Shown here: in pieces, positions 17,933-26,348 of the stretch
Position numbering within the stretch: position 1 is the first letter of the stretch
Layout of the letters: every line of letters begins with the position of its first letter
Source of the DNA: Gemmatimonadaceae bacterium
GTDB taxonomy: Bacteria > Gemmatimonadota > Gemmatimonadetes > Gemmatimonadales > Gemmatimonadaceae
Assembly (NCBI GenBank): GCA_020851035.1
Contig: JADZDM010000021.1
Coordinates: 124,001 to 188,000 of the forward strand
Direction: 5' to 3'
Length of the DNA: 64,000 nt
Translations under genes and position numbers: made by a program
The notes under the pieces: generated by a model
What the model was told of the DNA's origin: nothing
Databases searched by the model: none
What the model saw: the letters and a program-made list of their open reading frames with translations, nothing else

Positions 17933-18105
17933 CGATGGCTCCTCGTGTGGGGTCGGCCACCCTACGCCAGGGGACTGGCGGGAGTTTCCTGTCGCGGCGT
18001 GAGACGACCGCGCCAGTGGCTGCGGCCTACAGTGATGCGCCGCAGTGCGCCGCCGCAGCAGGTGAGCGCTCGCGTGTCCTCTCCCCCCGACAGCGGGATC
18101 GCCAG

Positions 18106-20043
18106 ATGCGTATCGTGACCGTCCGACGCCGGTCTCTTGTGCAGGCCGTCACCGCCGTGCTGTTGCTCGGCAGCTGCACGGCGGGCAACAGTGGAAAGGG
18201 CGACCCCGTCGAACCACCGGGGAGTGTCGCGATCATGGTCGCGACACCGAACGTGACGCTGCAGGCGGGCAGTGACGGCACGGTGGGTATCACGATCGCG
18301 CGGAGCGGCGCCTTCACGGGTGCCGTCTCGCTGACGTCGAGTGGCGCGCCCAGCGGCGTGACGGTCTCCTTCGCACCCGCGACGATCGCCCCAGGCGAGA
18401 CCGTCGCCGTTGCGACGCTCAGGACTACTGCAGCGACAGCGACGGGGCCGTTTGCGCTGACCATTGCGACGACCGGACTCGCGGGCGGTGCGACCGCCAC
18501 CCCGGCGAACGTCACCGTCACCGTGACGGCCGCGCCGACAGGCAGCGTGGCGATCGCCGCGTCACCTGCACTCGTCGCGATCGTGGCTGGCGGCGCGGCA
18601 GGCACAGCGGCGATTGCCATCACCCGCACCGCACCGTTTGCTGGCGCCGTCGACCTGGACGTGAGCAACGTGCCAGCCGGCCTCACCGCCACGGCCACAC
18701 CCGCCACCGGGATTGCAGGCACCAGCGCGACACTCTCCGTGCGCGCAGCGGCGACCCTCGCACCCGCCACGTATCCCCTGATCGTCACGGCCAGCGGCGA
18801 GGGTATCAGCAAGTCCGCCGATACGATCGACGTCGCCGTGGAGGCGCCGGTGAGCACCGGGATTGCGGTGACCTACTGCGCCCCCGACGCCCCGATCTGG
18901 GTGGCGCAGCAGGACGGCGCCGGCGCGTGGACGCGCGTCCTTCCCACGACCGGCAGCACATACCACATCAACTTCACCACCGGTCGGGGCGGGCTCGCCG
19001 TCGTCGACACGACCGGCTCGGTCAGTGCGCTCGGCGTCAGGTACCTCACGGTGGAGGAGTTGACGGCATACGCGAGCAGCGTGAACATCGGACGCTGCGG
19101 GACGAAGACGGTCTTCGTGCCGTCTCAGGATCTCGGCGCCCTCATCTCCCTGCGCGCGTCGCTCGGGCACGCGACCGGCTCTGGCAGCGGCGGCACGATC
19201 ACGATCCGCGGCGTTGCGGCCGGACCACAGGTGCTGCTCGGAACCCGCACGAGCGTGGGCTTCGCGCCGCGTCTCGCGATCCGCCGCAGTGTCAGCATTG
19301 CCGACGGCGGGACCGCGGCGTTCCTCGACTTCAACGGCCCGGAGTCATTCGACCCCGATTCCGCAACCATGACCGTCACCGGCATGAGCGATTCGGAGAC
19401 CGGAAGCGGCGGCGTGTACTTCACCGGATCACAGGGGTCGGCACGGAGTCCGATCCAATCCCTGAACAACCATGGTCGCGTCACGCGGTACTATGGGCTG
19501 CAAGGCAGCCGGCTGCTGTCCGGCGAGTTGCAGATGTTCCAGACGAGCGTGCTGAGCAGCGATCAGCGGTCGCGGCGAACCGTCGCGCGGTACTTCCGCA
19601 GCGTTGCCACCACCTCCGCCGTGATCGGGCCAGCGCTCCCCACCCCGACCATCACCCGCATCGAGAGCGGGGCTTTCGCGCGCGGCCGCGCGACGTTCTC
19701 CTCGCAACCGGAGTACAACCGCTGGGCACAGGCGTCGTTCAGCACCGGTGCGCGCGTGAACACGATGCTGGTCACGGCCGCATTCGCCGGCGCGTCGCTG
19801 CCGACCACGTGGGACCTGCAGATGCCCGATCTGTCTGCCGCGAGCGGCTGGAACGATGCGTGGGCGATTGCTGCGACGGGCGAGTTGCTGTGGGAGGTAA
19901 CGGCGGCTGGCGGAAGCCTCTTCCGCCTGCCCCCCGCACCCGCCGATGGCGCGCGAGGCATTCTCGCCACGCGGTCCAACGCGCTCCTGCCTGCGGACCT
20001 GCGCCTCTCGCAACACCCGCACGCGTGGCTGCCCATACCGTAG
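18106..20043 (+). CDS. Surface/periplasmic lipoprotein with Ig-like repeats, copy 1
   Basis: 645 residues from the ATG at 18106. The lipobox LLLGSC puts the lipidated Cys at residue 24. After a short linker come two Ig-like/BACON-like repeats of about 85-90 residues (GSVAIMVATPNVTLQAGSDG and GSVAIAASPALVAIVAGGAA starts; each has a 'G..V.LT.SGAP.GVTV.F.PA.I' core). A C-terminal region of about 400 residues begins VTYCAPDAPIWVAQQDGAGA, probably another beta-rich binding domain. A related gene follows on the same strand, and the segment around VAQQDGAGAWTRVLPTTGST is almost identical in both. Role unknown, possibly adhesion or polymer binding. No own terminator is visible before the second copy. 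Confidence 0.75.
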   Translation: MRIVTVRRRSLVQAVTAVLLLGSCTAGNSGKGDPVEPPGSVAIMVATPNVTLQAGSDGTVGITIARSGAFTGAVSLTSSGAPSGVTVSFAPATIAPGETVAVATLRTTAATATGPFALTIATTGLAGGATATPANVTVTVTAAPTGSVAIAASPALVAIVAGGAAGTAAIAITRTAPFAGAVDLDVSNVPAGLTATATPATGIAGTSATLSVRAAATLAPATYPLIVTASGEGISKSADTIDVAVEAPVSTGIAVTYCAPDAPIWVAQQDGAGAWTRVLPTTGSTYHINFTTGRGGLAVVDTTGSVSALGVRYLTVEELTAYASSVNIGRCGTKTVFVPSQDLGALISLRASLGHATGSGSGGTITIRGVAAGPQVLLGTRTSVGFAPRLAIRRSVSIADGGTAAFLDFNGPESFDPDSATMTVTGMSDSETGSGGVYFTGSQGSARSPIQSLNNHGRVTRYYGLQGSRLLSGELQMFQTSVLSSDQRSRRTVARYFRSVATTSAVIGPALPTPTITRIESGAFARGRATFSSQPEYNRWAQASFSTGARVNTMLVTAAFAGASLPTTWDLQMPDLSAASGWNDAWAIAATGELLWEVTAAGGSLFRLPPAPADGARGILATRSNALLPADLRLSQHPHAWLPIP

Positions 20044-20197
20044 GTCGCACCGCATCCACTGCGGTGGGACGCGACCTGCGGCGCAGCCGCGCCGTGAGAA
20101 AGACACGTGGAGTGATGCGGCACACCCAGTCGCGTCGCACTGCGCCGTTGCAGCTCGCGCGCCCAGTCGGCACTCACCCACCACTCGGGCTCGCCTC

Positions 20198-22174
20198 ATG
20201 GTCCGCTCCATCATGCCACTCCGCCACGCACTGCTCGCGCTCACGACCCTTGCGCTTCTGACCAGCTGCACGAGCGGTGGCGACGATGATGACGACGATC
20301 CGGTCGGTCCGACCGGGAGCGTCACCATCGTGACCTCCTCGGCCACGATGTCGGTTGCCGCCGGTGATTCCCGCGCCGTGACGATCACGGCGGTCCGTAG
20401 CGGAACCTTCTCCGGTGCAGTGCCACTCAGCGTCACCGGCGCACCGGCTGGCGTCACCGTGACCCTCACGCCGGCCACGATCGCGGTGGGCGCCACGAGC
20501 AGCACGGCGCTCGTCACGACGACCGCGACGACGCCCGCCGGCACGTCGTTCACGCTCACCGTCTCGGCGACGGGTCTGGCCGGCGGTGCGACCGTCACCG
20601 CCGGCACCGTCGTCGTGACCGTGAGCGCTGCAACACCTGGCAGCATTGCGGTCGCCGCCGCGCCACCAACCCTCGCGCTCATCGCCGGCGGCGCCGCGGC
20701 AACGTCGACGGTCACGATCACCCGCACGGCACCCTTCACTGGCGCGGTCGCGCTGGCGCTGAGTGGCGCGCCGCCTGGACTGACGGTCACGGCCACCCCC
20801 GCCACCGGCATCACAGGGACCACGGCCGCGGTGTCGGCGCAGGCGGCGAGCACGCTCGCCGGCGGGTCGTACCCGGTGATCGTCACGGCCAGTGGCGCTG
20901 GCGTGAGCAATGCCACCGCGACGATCACCGTGACCGTGTCGCCGCCGGCGATCGGGAGCGGCATCGCGGTGGCGTACTGCGCTGAAGATGCGCCGGTGTG
21001 GGTGGCGCAGCAGGACGGCGCCGGCGCGTGGACGCGGGTGCTGCCCACGACGGGGAGCACGTACCACATCAACTTCGCATCGGGACGCGGCGGGCTGGCT
21101 GTCGTGGACACTGTGTTCAACAGCCCGCTCGTCGACGTGATCTATCTCACCACTGCGGACCTCACCGAATACGCCGCGACGGTGAACACGGGCGGTTGCG
21201 GGAGCAAGACGGTGACCGTGCCGTTCACGGGTGCGACCACCGCCCAGCGCAAGAGCATCGGCATCGGGTACGCCAATGCGTCGATCAACGCCAACACGCC
21301 TGCATCCGGCACCTTCCAGCTGGACCTCGTGGCGCCAGGCCCCCAGGTACTGCTGGCCACCACGCGCAACGGGTCGGCACCCGATCAGCCGCTGCGTGTC
21401 GTGATGCGCCGCGATGTGAACATCCCGGCCGGCGGCACGGGCGCCAGCATCGATTTCGCCAGCAGCGAGGCGTTCACGCCGGAGACAGCGAGCGTCGCCA
21501 TCACCGGCCTCACCACAGGCGACCAGCAGGACGGGTACGTGCACTTCAACGGGTCGCGCGGATCGGCGCTGGCGGAGCTGTTCTACGCCTTCGATGTCCC
21601 CGGGACGTGGCGTTACTACGCGCTGCCGGCGTCACGGCTGAACACCGGGGAGTTGCAGCAGCTGCTGACGAGCGTGGTGAGCGGTGACCAGCTCGAGACG
21701 CGCACCGTGATGCGGTACTTCCGGAGTGCCGCCGCCGCGTCGCTGACCTTGCCACCGCGGCTGAGCGTCCCCACAGTGACACGGCTCGCCAGCGCGCCGT
21801 ACGGACGCGGGCGCGCCGCGCTGACGTCGCAGCCGGAATACGACCGCTGGGTACAGGCCACCTTCAGTACGGCCCCCCGTCACAACAGCGTGCTCGTCAC
21901 GGCCGGATACGCCGGCGCGTCCCTGCCGGCGACGTGGGACATCCAGATGCCCGACCTGTCAGGCGTGACGGGATGGAACAACGCCTGGGGCCTCACCACG
22001 GCGCCCTTCGCGTGGAGCGTCTCGGCGGCGGGCGGCAGCCACCACCAACTGGCCAGCCCACTCGCCGACGGTGCCACCGGCGTCACGAGCACGCGCGAGA
22101 GCGGATCGGCCGTCGTGACTGCGGCGCCGGCCGTCAGCCGGCATGCACGGGTTCTTGGGCTCCGCCGGCCGTGA
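20198..22174 (+). CDS. Surface/periplasmic lipoprotein with Ig-like repeats, copy 2
   Basis: About 658 residues from the ATG at 20198 (another ATG at 20213 is equally possible). The lipobox LLTSC is followed by an acidic linker GGDDDDDDPVGPTG. Two Ig-like repeats are followed by the same C-terminal domain type as the upstream gene: VAYCAEDAPVWVAQQDGAGA, then YHINF.SGRGGLAVVDT, then a shared MPDLSG..GWN.AW segment near the end. The two genes are 154 bases apart, so they arose by tandem duplication. The gene ends before a perfect hairpin. Confidence 0.75.
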   Translation: MVRSIMPLRHALLALTTLALLTSCTSGGDDDDDDPVGPTGSVTIVTSSATMSVAAGDSRAVTITAVRSGTFSGAVPLSVTGAPAGVTVTLTPATIAVGATSSTALVTTTATTPAGTSFTLTVSATGLAGGATVTAGTVVVTVSAATPGSIAVAAAPPTLALIAGGAAATSTVTITRTAPFTGAVALALSGAPPGLTVTATPATGITGTTAAVSAQAASTLAGGSYPVIVTASGAGVSNATATITVTVSPPAIGSGIAVAYCAEDAPVWVAQQDGAGAWTRVLPTTGSTYHINFASGRGGLAVVDTVFNSPLVDVIYLTTADLTEYAATVNTGGCGSKTVTVPFTGATTAQRKSIGIGYANASINANTPASGTFQLDLVAPGPQVLLATTRNGSAPDQPLRVVMRRDVNIPAGGTGASIDFASSEAFTPETASVAITGLTTGDQQDGYVHFNGSRGSALAELFYAFDVPGTWRYYALPASRLNTGELQQLLTSVVSGDQLETRTVMRYFRSAAAASLTLPPRLSVPTVTRLASAPYGRGRAALTSQPEYDRWVQATFSTAPRHNSVLVTAGYAGASLPATWDIQMPDLSGVTGWNNAWGLTTAPFAWSVSAAGGSHHQLASPLADGATGVTSTRESGSAVVTAAPAVSRHARVLGLRRP

Positions 22175-22417: not shown

Positions 22418-25219
22418 ATGCGGCCTTGGCTGGCGCTGGTTCTGCTCATCCATGGTCCGCTCGTGGCGCAGCGCCCGGGGCGCGCGCGCGACGTGGTGGA
22501 CGAAGCCCGTGCGGCGGCAGCGCGCGGTACGCTGCAGGCCTTCCGCGACAGGTGGGAGCGTGCGCCGGCCTCGGTCGACCGCCGCCTCGCGGCGCTGGCA
22601 CTCGGATCAGCGGCGCGACTCGCCTACCGATTCCCCGAGGCCGCACGCCTGTTCCGCGCGGCCGAGGGCGATACGACCGTGCCAGACGAAGTCACGGCGC
22701 GCGCGGCGCTGGGCCTGGCATCGGTGGAAGCGCAGCAGTTCAACGTGCGTGAGGCAAGCCGTCTGTTGCTGCGTGCGCGAGCGCTCGCCGTGCGGTCGGG
22801 CTCCACCGATGTGATCGCGGAGGGATTGCTCCAGCTTGTCTCGATCCGCCAGCGCACCGACGGTGTTGCGTCAGCGCTTGCAACCGCGGATTCGGCCGCG
22901 CGTCTCTTCGGACCGGCAGACGCCTCGTGGAAGCTCGAGCTCGCGTGCCGCAGGGCGCAGGTGCGCGTTCGCACCGGTGACACCGTGGCCCTCCGCGACG
23001 CGCTGACACACGCAGCGAGCGCCGCGGCGCTCGGCGACGCACGCGTCGAGGGCCAGTGCTGGCTGGCGGCCGCCCAGGCACACTTCGGCCATGACAAGTA
23101 TCGCGATGCAGCGATCGCGTTTGGTGCGGCAGCCGATCGATTCGAGGCGGGGCGGGACCAGGCGTCCCTGTCAGCCGCTCTGCAGTGGCGTGGCTACACC
23201 AACCGGCTGCTCGGTGAGTTCGACGCGGCCAAGGCGGATTTCAGTCGCGCGATCGAGGCCGGCACTGTCTCGGGGAATCGCTCCCCGGTGGCATGGGCAT
23301 GGCTCGGGCTGAGCGCGCTGTCGCTTGCCGCGGCCGAACCGGTGCGTGCGGCGGACGAGGCGCATCGCGGTCGGCTTGCCCTGGCGGCCATCGACGATCG
23401 CTGGGGGCTGGCCGAGGCCAGCGACCTGGCCGGCGCCGCCGCGCATCAACTCGGTGACCTGAAGCGCGCCCGGGCGCGCTTCCTGGAAGCCATCGCGCAG
23501 AGCGAGTCGCTCGGTGCCGTGACGAACCTGGTCAACCACGGCGCCCCGCTCATTGACATCGAACGGGAACTCAGCGGCGAGACCGCAGCGCTGGCACGGC
23601 TGGCGTGGATGGACTCCATCGCGCGACGCGCCCGGAATCCCACATGGGACAACGAGCGGCACTACCACCTTGGACTGCTGGCGCTGCGACGGGGCGACGG
23701 TGCCGGCGCGCTCGGGCACTTTCGCCGCTTCCGTGCCACGCTCGACGAACGGACGCTGAACGCCGTCCGTCGCTTCGACTTCGCCGTGCGGCATGCGGAG
23801 GCGCAGTCACTCGCGGGTGATGTCCTGCAGGGGGCGCGGATGCTGGACAGCGCGATCGCGCGCTTCGGCGCGTGGCGGGCGAGCATCAGCGATCGTGCGT
23901 TGCGGATCGCGAGCTGGGACGAGCGGTCCATCGACTCCGATCCGGACCTGGGCATCGCGACGATCATCGCCAGGACGGCACACGCGGGGCACGACACGCT
24001 GGCCCTCCGACTCGCGAACGCCCGTCGCTCACGCGACCTGCGCAGCGCGGTGGTCGCGGGCGCTGATCGCGCACCGGCGGCCGGCGAACTCTGGCTCCAG
24101 TTCGTGACCGGACGCCGCGGCGAGCCCACCACACTCTTCATCAGGCGCGGCACCTCCCTGCGCAGCGCCGCGCTGCCGCCGGTGGACTCCCTGCTCCGCT
24201 CCATTGCCGCACTGCGCTCATTGCTCGCGGGCAACGCGGCTGCAACGGACCTCGCCCGGGTGCTCGGCACGTCGCTGCTCGGCAGCGCCATCCCGGCCGC
24301 GGATTCGTCCACACGCCATCTCGTGATCGTCCCAGACGGCATGTTGCACGGCGTGCCATGGGCGGCGCTCGTGCTGCCGGACGGTCGGCGCGTGATCGAG
24401 CGATTCGCCGTGACGACCAGGCCGGTCGCCCCAGCCCCCCCGCGGGAGCGCACCGGCGCGCGTGGCAGCCCGATCGTTGCGTTGGGCCTCTCGGCGGGCG
24501 CTGCGCGCTGGGAGGGCGCGACACTGGCACCGTTGCCGCGCGCCGAGCGCGAGGCGCACGGCGTGGCGACCGCGGCGACCAACGGCCGCGCGATCGTTGG
24601 CGCGGCTGCGACGGAGCGGGCCGTCAGGAGTCTCGCGGCGTCACCGCCATCGATCCTGCACTTCGCCATGCACGCCATCGTGGACGATCGTGCCGCGTCG
24701 CGCGCGGCGATCGTCCTTGCTCCCGCCGACGGTGACGACGGCCTCCTGACCGCGCACGAACTCGCGTCGATGCGGCTGCCGGCGGAGCTGGTGGTGTTGT
24801 CCGGCTGCAGTACGGCATCGGGCCGCGTGCTGGCCGCTGAAGGGGTGCAGGGTCTCGTGCGCCCGCTGTTCGACGCCGGCGTGCAGGGAGTGGTGGCGAC
24901 GCAATGGCCGACCAGCGATGCATCCGCCGCACAGATGATGGCGTGGTTCTACGCGGAGCTGGCGCGCGGACTGTCCACGGCGGACGCGCTGCGCGCGGCG
25001 CAGCTTCGCGGCCACCGCGCCGGCCTGCCGCCGGGTGAGTGGGCGGGGTGGAGCTATGTGGGTGATCCATCGACGCGTGTCTCGGCCACACTCATGGCAC
25101 CACGCAGCACCAGCGACCTGCCGCCGCTGATCGCGGGATTCAGCGGCCTGCTCGCCGTTGGCGCCCTGGTCGCCTGGTTCTACCGCACCCCGAGCCGCCG
25201 CGTGCGGCTGCGCACCTGA
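22418..25219 (+). CDS. Exported TPR-CHAT protease candidate
   Basis: 933 residues from the ATG at 22418. The start MRPWLALVLLIHGPLVAQ looks like a signal peptide. Residues about 25-550 are TPR-like helical repeats (for example GEFDAAKADFSRAIEAGTVS, LGDLKRARARFLEAIAQSES). From about 600 to 880 there is a CHAT domain of the caspase-HetF class, with ILHFAMHAIVDD (catalytic His at about 752) and LVVLSGCSTASGRVLAAEGV (Cys at about 797), then GVVATQWPTSD. A C-terminal hydrophobic segment (LIAGFSGLLAVGALVAWFYR) is followed by a basic tail, a likely membrane anchor. The domain would lie on the periplasmic side. Its 3' end overlaps by 40 bases the convergent anti-sigma gene, next to an ECF sigma gene, which suggests it could regulate that sigma factor by proteolysis. 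Confidence 0.82.
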   Translation: MRPWLALVLLIHGPLVAQRPGRARDVVDEARAAAARGTLQAFRDRWERAPASVDRRLAALALGSAARLAYRFPEAARLFRAAEGDTTVPDEVTARAALGLASVEAQQFNVREASRLLLRARALAVRSGSTDVIAEGLLQLVSIRQRTDGVASALATADSAARLFGPADASWKLELACRRAQVRVRTGDTVALRDALTHAASAAALGDARVEGQCWLAAAQAHFGHDKYRDAAIAFGAAADRFEAGRDQASLSAALQWRGYTNRLLGEFDAAKADFSRAIEAGTVSGNRSPVAWAWLGLSALSLAAAEPVRAADEAHRGRLALAAIDDRWGLAEASDLAGAAAHQLGDLKRARARFLEAIAQSESLGAVTNLVNHGAPLIDIERELSGETAALARLAWMDSIARRARNPTWDNERHYHLGLLALRRGDGAGALGHFRRFRATLDERTLNAVRRFDFAVRHAEAQSLAGDVLQGARMLDSAIARFGAWRASISDRALRIASWDERSIDSDPDLGIATIIARTAHAGHDTLALRLANARRSRDLRSAVVAGADRAPAAGELWLQFVTGRRGEPTTLFIRRGTSLRSAALPPVDSLLRSIAALRSLLAGNAAATDLARVLGTSLLGSAIPAADSSTRHLVIVPDGMLHGVPWAALVLPDGRRVIERFAVTTRPVAPAPPRERTGARGSPIVALGLSAGAARWEGATLAPLPRAEREAHGVATAATNGRAIVGAAATERAVRSLAASPPSILHFAMHAIVDDRAASRAAIVLAPADGDDGLLTAHELASMRLPAELVVLSGCSTASGRVLAAEGVQGLVRPLFDAGVQGVVATQWPTSDASAAQMMAWFYAELARGLSTADALRAAQLRGHRAGLPPGEWAGWSYVGDPSTRVSATLMAPRSTSDLPPLIAGFSGLLAVGALVAWFYRTPSRRVRLRT

Positions 25220-25812
25220 GTGCCGTCGTCGAGCCGTGCCGTGACCCACCAGCGGTAGTCACCGCGCGGTACGGCACCGGCCGCCAGTGACAGCGTGCTG
25301 TCAGCGGTCTCGCGTTGCACCACGGGCACACCACCGGCCGAGTACACCTCGACCTCGTAGGTGGCGTCGGCGATCCGCTGCCACACGAAGGTCACGCCGC
25401 CGTCTGCGGTGGCACCGTCGCGTGGCGTGACGAGCGTGATGGAGGCATCGGCGCTGCGCAGCACGCGAGCGGCATCCCGATCGCCGATCGCGCGGGCACT
25501 GACGACGACAGCGACGACGGCGGCCGCGGCAAGTGCCGCCGGCCGCCACCAGCGCCGGACACGACCCGCCGTGGGCACGATCGGGACGCTCGTCCCGACG
25601 TCCTCCGCGAGGCCTTGGCGGAGGGCACGCACCATCGCCAGTTCTGCGGCGCCATCCGGCGTGGCCATCAGCCGGTCGAGCGTGTCGAGGCGTTGCCGTT
25701 CGTCACCGGTGCCGTCGACGAGGTCGACGATCTCGCCGGCGGTCGGCTGCTGGTCGGGCGGCATCGAGAGCGACGCGAACTCCCGGCGCAGGGTGTCGTC
25801 GTTCACGCTCAT
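25180..25812 (-). CDS. Membrane-anchored anti-sigma-factor-like protein
   Basis: A 210-residue protein. Residues 1-85 are predicted cytoplasmic and resemble the sigma-binding region of zinc-finger anti-sigma factors (GEIVDLVDGTGDERQRLDTL, MATPDGAAELAMVRAL), but the usual His/Cys ligands are missing. A single transmembrane segment (about 91-108, AALAAAAVVAVVVSA) is followed by a C-terminal Ig-like domain (TLVTPRDGATADGGVTFVWQ to RWWVTARLDDGTQVRSRT) predicted to be periplasmic. It starts within the end of the upstream sigma gene (ATGA overlap), so it is co-translated with it. Its own end overlaps the TPR-CHAT gene. This is inferred to be the sigma factor's inhibitor and possibly a protease substrate. 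Confidence 0.7.
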   Translation of the reverse strand: MSVNDDTLRREFASLSMPPDQQPTAGEIVDLVDGTGDERQRLDTLDRLMATPDGAAELAMVRALRQGLAEDVGTSVPIVPTAGRVRRWWRPAALAAAAVVAVVVSARAIGDRDAARVLRSADASITLVTPRDGATADGGVTFVWQRIADATYEVEVYSAGGVPVVQRETADSTLSLAAGAVPRGDYRWWVTARLDDGTQVRSRTRRLGVR

Positions 25813-26348
25813 GATCCCCCCTCGAAGCCGGCGTGCCGGAGACAGAGCCGCAGATCCTCGAGTCCACGGTACAACAGGTTGCGTGTCTTCGCCTCACTCC
25901 AGCGCAGGAGTGCAGCGATCTCCTCGCGCGGGCTGCCGCGGAGGTGCATCGCAACCACCGCGCGGCGGCTCTGCATGAGCTTCGCGAAGCAGGTGCGGAG
26001 CGCCGCCTGCAGCGCCACCTGATCGAGGGCGTTGCCGTCGCGCGCCGCGATCGCGGCCGCCGCCTCGGCCGGCACCTCACGCCGCGCATCGCGCCGGCGC
26101 AGCAGGTCGATCGCGGCGCCGGCGGCGATCCGGTAGATCAGCGCGGGGCGCAGGTCGTCGGGCGCGTCGCCGCGTTCCGCGTGCCGCCAGATCCGCAGCC
26201 GGGTCTCCTGCAGGACGAGCTCGATGTCGGCCAGGTCCACCCCGTACTGGCGCGCCGCGGCGCGCCCGCGCGGGGCGTGCGCGGCGATCACGGCCTCGAT
26301 CCGGTGACTCAGATCGTCGTGGCGCGGCGTGACGTCAGTGGTCGGCAT
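25809..26348 (-). CDS. ECF-type RNA polymerase sigma factor
   Basis: A 179-residue protein with the two conserved sigma regions. Region 2 includes VLQETRLRIWRHAERGDAPD, RPALIYRIAAGAAIDLLRRR with the usual '..n.aiD.lR.' motif; region 4 has LMQSRRAVVAMHLRGSPREE and IAALLRWSEAKTRNLLYRGL, a helix-turn-helix. The spacing is normal for ECF sigma factors, with no region 1 or 3. It is first in a two-gene unit with the anti-sigma-like gene (4-nt overlap). What it switches on cannot be seen; the CHAT gene is the obvious neighbour, but it is on the other strand and convergent. Confidence 0.82.
   Translation of the reverse strand: MPTTDVTPRHDDLSHRIEAVIAAHAPRGRAAARQYGVDLADIELVLQETRLRIWRHAERGDAPDDLRPALIYRIAAGAAIDLLRRRDARREVPAEAAAAIAARDGNALDQVALQAALRTCFAKLMQSRRAVVAMHLRGSPREEIAALLRWSEAKTRNLLYRGLEDLRLCLRHAGFEGGS

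Follow-up and report, generated by a model that had tools for sequence, protein, structure and literature searches.

A split TPR-CHAT/anti-sigma locus with an exported candidate protease beside an ECF sigma factor gene in a Gemmatimonadaceae bacterium

Introduction

Proteins that combine a tetratricopeptide repeat (TPR) superhelix with a caspase-like CHAT domain are known mainly from CRISPR systems (Csx29), from separase and from a single anti-sigma factor, DdvA. Here we analyze a locus in which the gene of such a protein meets the genes of an extracytoplasmic function (ECF) sigma factor and a putative anti-sigma factor. It occupies positions 22,418 to 26,348 of a 64,000-nucleotide stretch, called the window below, from a Gemmatimonadaceae bacterium (assembly GCA_020851035.1, contig JADZDM010000021.1, positions 124,001 to 188,000 of the forward strand).

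Three described systems come closest. In type III-E CRISPR systems, Csx29 is an RNA-activated TPR-CHAT protease whose substrate, Csx30, inhibits an ECF sigma factor (PMC10028731). CHAT genes are conserved in the genetic context of the ECF54 sigma factors, which are proposed to act without an anti-sigma factor and whose model member is actinobacterial (PMC8999054). In Myxococcus the ECF sigma factor DdvS, the partner of DdvA, controls an anti-phage island (PMC12288465). The locus in the window represents a known kind of TPR-CHAT/anti-sigma system in a variant form that is split into two genes. The strongest hint that its two genes act together comes from DdvA, since there the TPR-CHAT fold is already the outer part of an anti-sigma factor.

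Results and Discussion

Organization of the locus

The gene order is CHAT, anti-sigma and ECF sigma, with the CHAT gene converging on the other two:

22418..25219, plus strand: exported TPR-CHAT protein of 933 amino acids, candidate site-1 protease (Pfam CHAT, AlphaFold2 model, PDB matches)
25180..25812, minus strand: single-pass anti-sigma-like protein of 210 amino acids (family alignment A2, cross-phylum alignment A4, model)
25809..26348, minus strand: ECF sigma factor of 179 amino acids (TIGR02937, Sigma70_r2, Sigma70_r4_2)
25180..25219, 3' ends of both genes: overlap of 40 bp where the CHAT and anti-sigma genes meet tail to tail

The sigma factor matches TIGR02937 (E = 2.9e-12, 46.5 bits against a cut-off of 42.9) as well as PF04542 (Sigma70_r2) and PF08281 (Sigma70_r4_2) above their cut-offs, and possesses regions 2 and 4 only. 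Its stop codon shares the sequence ATGA (25809-25812) with the start of the anti-sigma gene. An earlier note, made from the letters of the window alone, had described both overlaps, a signal peptide, TPR-CHAT architecture, His-Cys dyad and C-terminal transmembrane helix in the CHAT protein, and a single-pass anti-sigma-like protein with an outer immunoglobulin (Ig)-like domain and no zinc ligands; all of these features were confirmed, those of the anti-sigma-like protein by sequence and model.

Abutting or overlapping CHAT/anti-sigma tails comparable to those in the window are found at seven other loci (L057, L059, L060, L071, L148, L149 and L160). Although the whole genome around the window (4.97 Mb, 95.7% complete) has only 28 Sigma70_r2 matches, a sigma/anti-sigma pair lies tail to tail with two of its four CHAT genes. 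The second copy of the module is located about 100 kb away, outside the window (genome G000, contig C21, 45889-50083; L055), where the CHAT gene is likewise convergent with anti-sigma and sigma genes.

Conservation of the three-gene linkage

The surroundings of CHAT genes were surveyed in 118 Gemmatimonadaceae genomes. An ECF sigma gene lies within 2.5 kb of 40 of the 66 CHAT genes, and the nearest sigma gene falls in the wider ring of 2.5-7 kb for only 4 of the 50 CHAT genes with both flanks present. By orientation, the 40 linked loci are divided into 21 convergent (the type in the window), 19 same-strand and no divergent ones; 16 of the same-strand loci run from sigma through anti-sigma to CHAT, and the other three have the pair downstream of CHAT. 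Viewed from the partners, a CHAT gene stands beside 38 of the 44 evaluable full-length anti-sigma relatives; among 30 sigma factors closely related to that of the window, about 25 have one next to them. The former count is a hand tally of 46 full-length relatives scoring at least 60 bits, from which two at contig ends were excluded and in which G050, with a 3.5-kb gap, was included; one further match of that search was set aside as a secreted Ig protein that is no anti-sigma factor. Over the 118 genomes, window-type CHAT and window-type anti-sigma genes occur together in 21, one without the other in three and two, and neither in 92 (Fisher p = 5e-18), a value to be taken only as a guide because the genomes are not independent. 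Three genomes (G047, G064 and G016) have the pair without an adjoining CHAT gene, yet carry an unlinked CHAT gene of the same group elsewhere.

A wider sample took in eighty CHAT loci of named bacteria beyond this genome set; they contain 33 CHAT genes with a sigma gene within 2.5 kb. The linked loci include ones from Aminicenantes, Acidobacteria, Calditrichota, Bacteroidetes, a Lysobacterales metagenome-assembled genome and another labelled Clostridiales; the cyanobacterial CHAT genes of this sample show no sigma linkage. In Aminicenantes (L148, L149, L156, L160 and L161) the genes are convergent with abutting or overlapping tails, as in the window, and the anti-sigma factors consist of a zinc anti-sigma domain, one transmembrane helix, a stalk and an Ig domain. 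Linkage states are strongly clustered in the tree built from 148 CHAT domains (25 changes versus 50 in shuffles), on which both arrangements arose more than once, the deep forks being weakly supported. At two Aminicenantes loci (L160, 613-9102; L161, 5092-14075) a single sigma/anti-sigma pair is flanked on either side by a CHAT gene.

In a single genome, a convergent overlap needs no functional tie. Chance nevertheless has a very small probability as the explanation, given two arrangements conserved across phyla, the reciprocal linkage and the co-occurrence of the genes (p as above), and a chance neighbourhood is contradicted by the neighbourhood, reciprocal, co-occurrence and flanking-gene surveys alike. 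In the last of these, which served as the control, no conserved neighbour of CHAT loci emerged among the ten other genes around the window locus, the sole matches being to a beta-lactamase-fold protein (three, all weak and at scattered positions). The survey of the three families is the one that the earlier note had proposed; the neighbourhood turned out to be conserved and reciprocal, and the outcome named there as refuting, CHAT homologues consistently found without sigma and anti-sigma genes, did not occur. Judged by gene neighbourhoods, the linkage of sigma, anti-sigma and CHAT is old and specific. Because the same three genes stand together in several phyla, the CHAT protein very probably acts on the anti-sigma factor from outside the inner membrane.

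The exported TPR-CHAT protein

The following parts are recognized in the CHAT protein:

22418..22468, plus strand: signal peptide, residues 1-17, MRPWLALVLLIHGPLVA-Q (sequence)
22478..24037, plus strand: TPR superhelix, about residues 21-540 (helical repeats of the model; weak TPR_1/TPR_8 matches)
24248..25057, plus strand: CHAT domain, residues 611-880 (PF12770, E = 1.9e-57)
24671..24673, plus strand: catalytic His752 (invariant in two sets, 25/25 and 19/19)
24806..24808, plus strand: catalytic Cys797 (invariant in the same two sets, 25/25 and 19/19)
25121..25186, plus strand: C-terminal transmembrane helix (residues 902-923), then a basic tail RTPSRRVRLRT (hydropathy, model)

The PF12770 match scores 195.3 bits against a Pfam cut-off of 24, and the AlphaFold2 model has a predicted local distance difference test (pLDDT) value of 84.3 and a predicted template modelling score of 0.76. 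A Foldseek search of the PDB with this model ranks DdvA first (E = 1.2e-14), with the Craspase TPR-CHAT protein and separase next. The VIA-align Z scores are 28.4 for Csx29 (524 residues, root-mean-square deviation (rmsd) 8.9), about 25 for separase and 23.2 for DdvA (636 residues, rmsd 4.7 A), the DdvA alignment being the longest low-rmsd stretch among the bacterial proteins compared (Csx29 and DdvA). A profile of the CHAT domain run against PDB sequences gives the same leader (DdvA, E = 1.9e-12; Craspase proteins, 1e-8; separase, 2e-5) and aligns the His and Cys positions with those of the DdvA CHAT domain and the Craspase TPR-CHAT protein; a phmmer search of PDB sequences with the whole protein returned no match at 1e-3. 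The His-Cys pair is intact, and the protein is a candidate protease. The only PADLOC match, a weak one to BovA (E = 0.0018), was attributed to the common CHAT domain and rejected.

An export signal was detected in 62 of 66 evaluable sigma-linked CHAT relatives, 14 of them with a lipobox, by a crude rule that is permissive enough for unlinked CHAT proteins to pass too, so that the result supports the compartment and not the linkage. In the window protein the signal peptide, the transmembrane helix and the basic tail together place the CHAT domain outside the inner membrane by the positive-inside rule. That it lies on the same side of the membrane as the Ig domain, as the earlier note had supposed, is thus borne out as far as predicted export signals go.

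The anti-sigma-like protein and its stalk

The minus-strand partner has four parts of interest:

25588..25812, minus strand: cytoplasmic helical domain, residues 1-75, a degenerate zinc anti-sigma domain (helices 5-13, 25-33, 38-49 and 54-72 in the model)
25477..25545, minus strand: transmembrane helix, about residues 90-112 (hydropathy; helix 90-117 in the model)
25456..25458, minus strand: Arg119 in a disordered stalk, candidate cleavage point VLR/SAD (A2 and A4 alignments; pLDDT below 50)
25183..25446, minus strand: Ig/fibronectin type III (Fn3)-like extracytoplasmic domain, residues 123-210 (model pLDDT about 90; Fn3 fold matches with Z of about 10.7)

On its own, the window protein matches no Pfam zinc-finger or anti-sigma model and has a sub-threshold Ig-like match only. 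The zinc ligands H-x3-C-x2-C are absent from it (DRLMATPDG at the equivalent place) and are kept in relatives such as L058, L066, L068, L146 and L148 in alignments A2 and A4, one A4 member giving a weak zf-HC2 match (E=0.0048). From these alignments, the cytoplasmic domain of the window protein is a degenerate zinc anti-sigma domain that has lost its ligands. With a helical cytoplasmic N-terminus, a single transmembrane helix and a sigma gene as its pair, it falls into class I of the anti-sigma factors in the wider sense, and we regard it as a putative anti-sigma factor whose binding and inhibition of the sigma factor are presumed from these family features. By analogy, its N-terminus would be inside and its Ig domain outside.

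The model has an overall pLDDT of 67.8, and residues 104-122 of the stalk are unstructured (pLDDT below 50). Within this stalk, R119 is invariant in an alignment of 20 anti-sigma factors and, independently, in one of the window protein with seven from other phyla. In a set of 53 rows, 50 have the Arg, and the remaining stalk columns vary; the three exceptions are a secreted Ig protein that is not an anti-sigma factor (L067, 4673) and two poorly framed rows (L171 and L212). The residue that follows is G, S, A, E, N, D or T. A single near-invariant Arg amid a variable, apparently disordered stalk would match the look of a protease site, and it is in line with separase, which cuts after Arg in ExxR sites.

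The outer part of the anti-sigma factor varies. At six loci (L041, L044, L045, L182, L188 and L203) the anti-sigma factor adjoining CHAT has a TPR-like and not an Ig-like outer part, which may constitute a second sensor type of the sigma/anti-sigma/CHAT module. Domains like the Ig domain of the anti-sigma factor are found in secreted proteins as well. Three of these are encoded near CHAT genes without an adjoining sigma gene (L187, 8911-9975; L192, 16263-17468; L206, 846-1874), the L206 protein having the Ig domain after a FecR-like part, together with TPRs; the Ig domain may therefore accompany CHAT independently of sigma. Four others lie near sigma/anti-sigma loci (L055, 6025-7101; L060, 7476-9065; L067, 4673-6112; L127, 6780-7937), of which L055, L060 and L067 have a CHAT gene, and these proteins are possibly a fourth component or a substrate.

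A proposed signalling module

We propose that the three genes encode one signalling module in which the CHAT protein cuts the anti-sigma stalk at or near Arg119 and RseP completes the release of the sigma factor, a proposal that we consider evenly balanced between right and wrong. It draws on the conserved linkage, the intact His-Cys pair, the shared compartment, the disordered stalk with its near-invariant Arg, and RseP, which is present in the genome (TIGR00054 at 244.5 bits); docking, cleavage, cut site, order of events and signal are inferred. At rest, the single-pass anti-sigma factor would keep the sigma factor at the inner membrane through its cytoplasmic domain, and the TPR-CHAT protein, with its C-terminal helix as an anchor, would sit beside the floppy stalk and the Ig/Fn3 domain. 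A signal, either a ligand or a misfolded partner, would be received by the TPR superhelix; the CHAT domain would then dock on the Ig domain and sever the stalk, with Arg119 or a position next to it as the likeliest cut site. Once the Ig domain is gone, the remaining anti-sigma factor would be exposed to RseP, an intramembrane protease, and the sigma factor would be freed. A bolder reading, which we hold only tentatively, is that the extracytoplasmic, caspase-like CHAT protein serves as a dedicated anti-sigma site-1 protease, recognizing the Ig/Fn3 domain and cutting at the conserved stalk Arg; it would then belong to a new class of enzymes that initiate the release of sigma factors, spread over several phyla, with DdvA as a fused offshoot.

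Several observations weigh against this proposal, and the chief doubt is whether the CHAT protein cuts or only binds. Four sigma-linked CHAT proteins encoded in sigma-anti-sigma-CHAT operons of one clade (L042, L046, L047 and L082) carry Tyr or Ser at the position of the catalytic His and keep the Cys; proteolysis is thus not universal, and these proteins are possibly pseudo-proteases still tied to sigma/anti-sigma pairs. The stalk Arg is retained in four anti-sigma factors without an adjoining CHAT gene (L124-L127), although three of the four genomes (G047, G064 and G016) carry such a CHAT gene elsewhere. Arg is also frequent in high-GC proteomes, where a stalk of this length often has one, gaps aid its alignment, and the rows are related to one another. 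Finally, the Csx29 cut site has no essential residue (PMC10028731).

The CHAT protein could, alternatively, be a receptor that binds the Ig domain, its hold or release deciding whether the anti-sigma factor is inactivated by a DegS-like protease or by a conformational change. The four linked CHAT proteins lacking the His fit such a role, as do the Ig-like domains of the secreted CHAT neighbours without sigma (L187, L192 and L206) and DdvA, in which TPR-CHAT is the sensory part of an anti-sigma factor, within one chain. A pure receptor has no need of the His and Cys that are invariant in the window-type set, and the stalk Arg has no evident binding role; we give this alternative a low, though appreciable, probability.

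A second doubt about the proposed module is whether the CHAT protein is a component of the system or a target of the sigma factor. In the latter case the sigma factor would activate the CHAT gene, whose product would cut elsewhere in the periplasm and might serve in defence or in cell death, for example. ECF sigma factors often act on genes adjacent to their own. The anti-phage island under DdvS control points in the same direction (PMC12288465). The upstream regions of the sigma and CHAT genes share no motif beyond the shuffled level, dyads being found in at most five sequences, a weak test since start sites were guessed. In many loci sigma, anti-sigma and CHAT follow one another in one operon, an arrangement equally compatible with a component and with a target, and the fusion precedent DdvA places TPR-CHAT inside the sensor. 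On balance, we find such an output role of the CHAT protein improbable.

Rather unlikely, in our view, is a shared signal with no direct contact, in which the CHAT protein would cut secreted Ig-domain proteins that the Ig domain of the anti-sigma factor senses or competes with. Secreted proteins with an anti-sigma-like Ig domain do occur near some CHAT genes (L055, L060 and L067), and most loci are without them; the secreted genes upstream in the window are absent from related loci.

If the proposed module, with its cut in the stalk, is true, CHAT proteases would gain a general role in envelope signalling, the cutting step would be testable at one predicted residue in a simple two-protein system, and the fused DdvA could, like the CRISPR version, have arisen from one kind of module.

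Upstream sequences and neighbouring genes

A TAGCTT/TAACTTTG-like box is located a few bases before the ATG of the sigma gene at eight loci (L058, L061, L062, L063, L065, L066, L068 and L071), which suggests leaderless transcripts from housekeeping-type promoters. Directly upstream of the CHAT gene in the window (17935-22174, plus strand) are two large, related genes in tandem with a lipobox-like start and Ig-like repeats; they have no Pfam match, and the flanking-gene comparison found them at none of the related loci. Defence-type Pfam families were not matched by any of the ten genes flanking the window locus.

Comparison with known systems

The pathway proposed here resembles those of RseA/DegS/RseP and RsiW in its single-pass anti-sigma factor, its extracytoplasmic first cut and the availability of RseP; unlike the DegS- or PrsW-type enzymes, the candidate first protease belongs to the caspase-like CHAT clan. 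Separase shares the combination of a helical repeat with a caspase-like domain, and differs in being eukaryotic and cleaving cohesin. In contrast to the ECF54 systems, the loci of the window type always pair the sigma factor with an anti-sigma factor.

The type III-E Csx29/Csx30/CASP-sigma system has the same set of a TPR-CHAT protease, an inhibitor and an ECF sigma factor, with the same fold, but Csx29 is cytoplasmic and RNA-activated through Cas7-11, whereas the CHAT protein of the window is exported and membrane-anchored. A RAMP-family protein (PF03787), as found in Cas7-11, had no match in the genome of the window, which is 95.7% complete, with control genomes positive. Membership in the type III-E CASP (Craspase) systems was rejected because the genome has no RAMP protein and the CHAT protein is exported.

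The open-access literature, outside which the DdvA papers (2018, 2024) lie, yielded no description of a CHAT protein that is exported as a protein of its own and paired with an anti-sigma factor. The 2024 DdvA paper reportedly raised a caspase-like self-cleavage of DdvA before RseP, in which case the present proposal would be a close cousin. In the DdvA/DdvS system of Myxococcus xanthus (PDB 8rot, 8rw5; Sci Adv 2024, reference 287 of PMC12288465), as is proposed for the window, an ECF sigma factor is held by a transmembrane anti-sigma factor and a TPR-CHAT fold lies outside the cytoplasm; the target of DdvS is the anti-phage island. DdvA unites the anti-sigma domain, transmembrane helix and TPR-CHAT part in one chain of 991 residues, whereas in the window TPR-CHAT is a separate, exported protein encoded on the opposite strand and the anti-sigma factor bears an Ig/Fn3 domain instead. 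The reading in the earlier note, a CRISPR-free version of the Csx29 logic, is upheld in part: the likeness to Csx29 stands, and DdvA has to be added as the nearest known relative. Because that CRISPR-free logic already exists in fused form in DdvA, the new element of the window locus is its split into two genes together with an anti-sigma factor that carries an Ig domain on a stalk.

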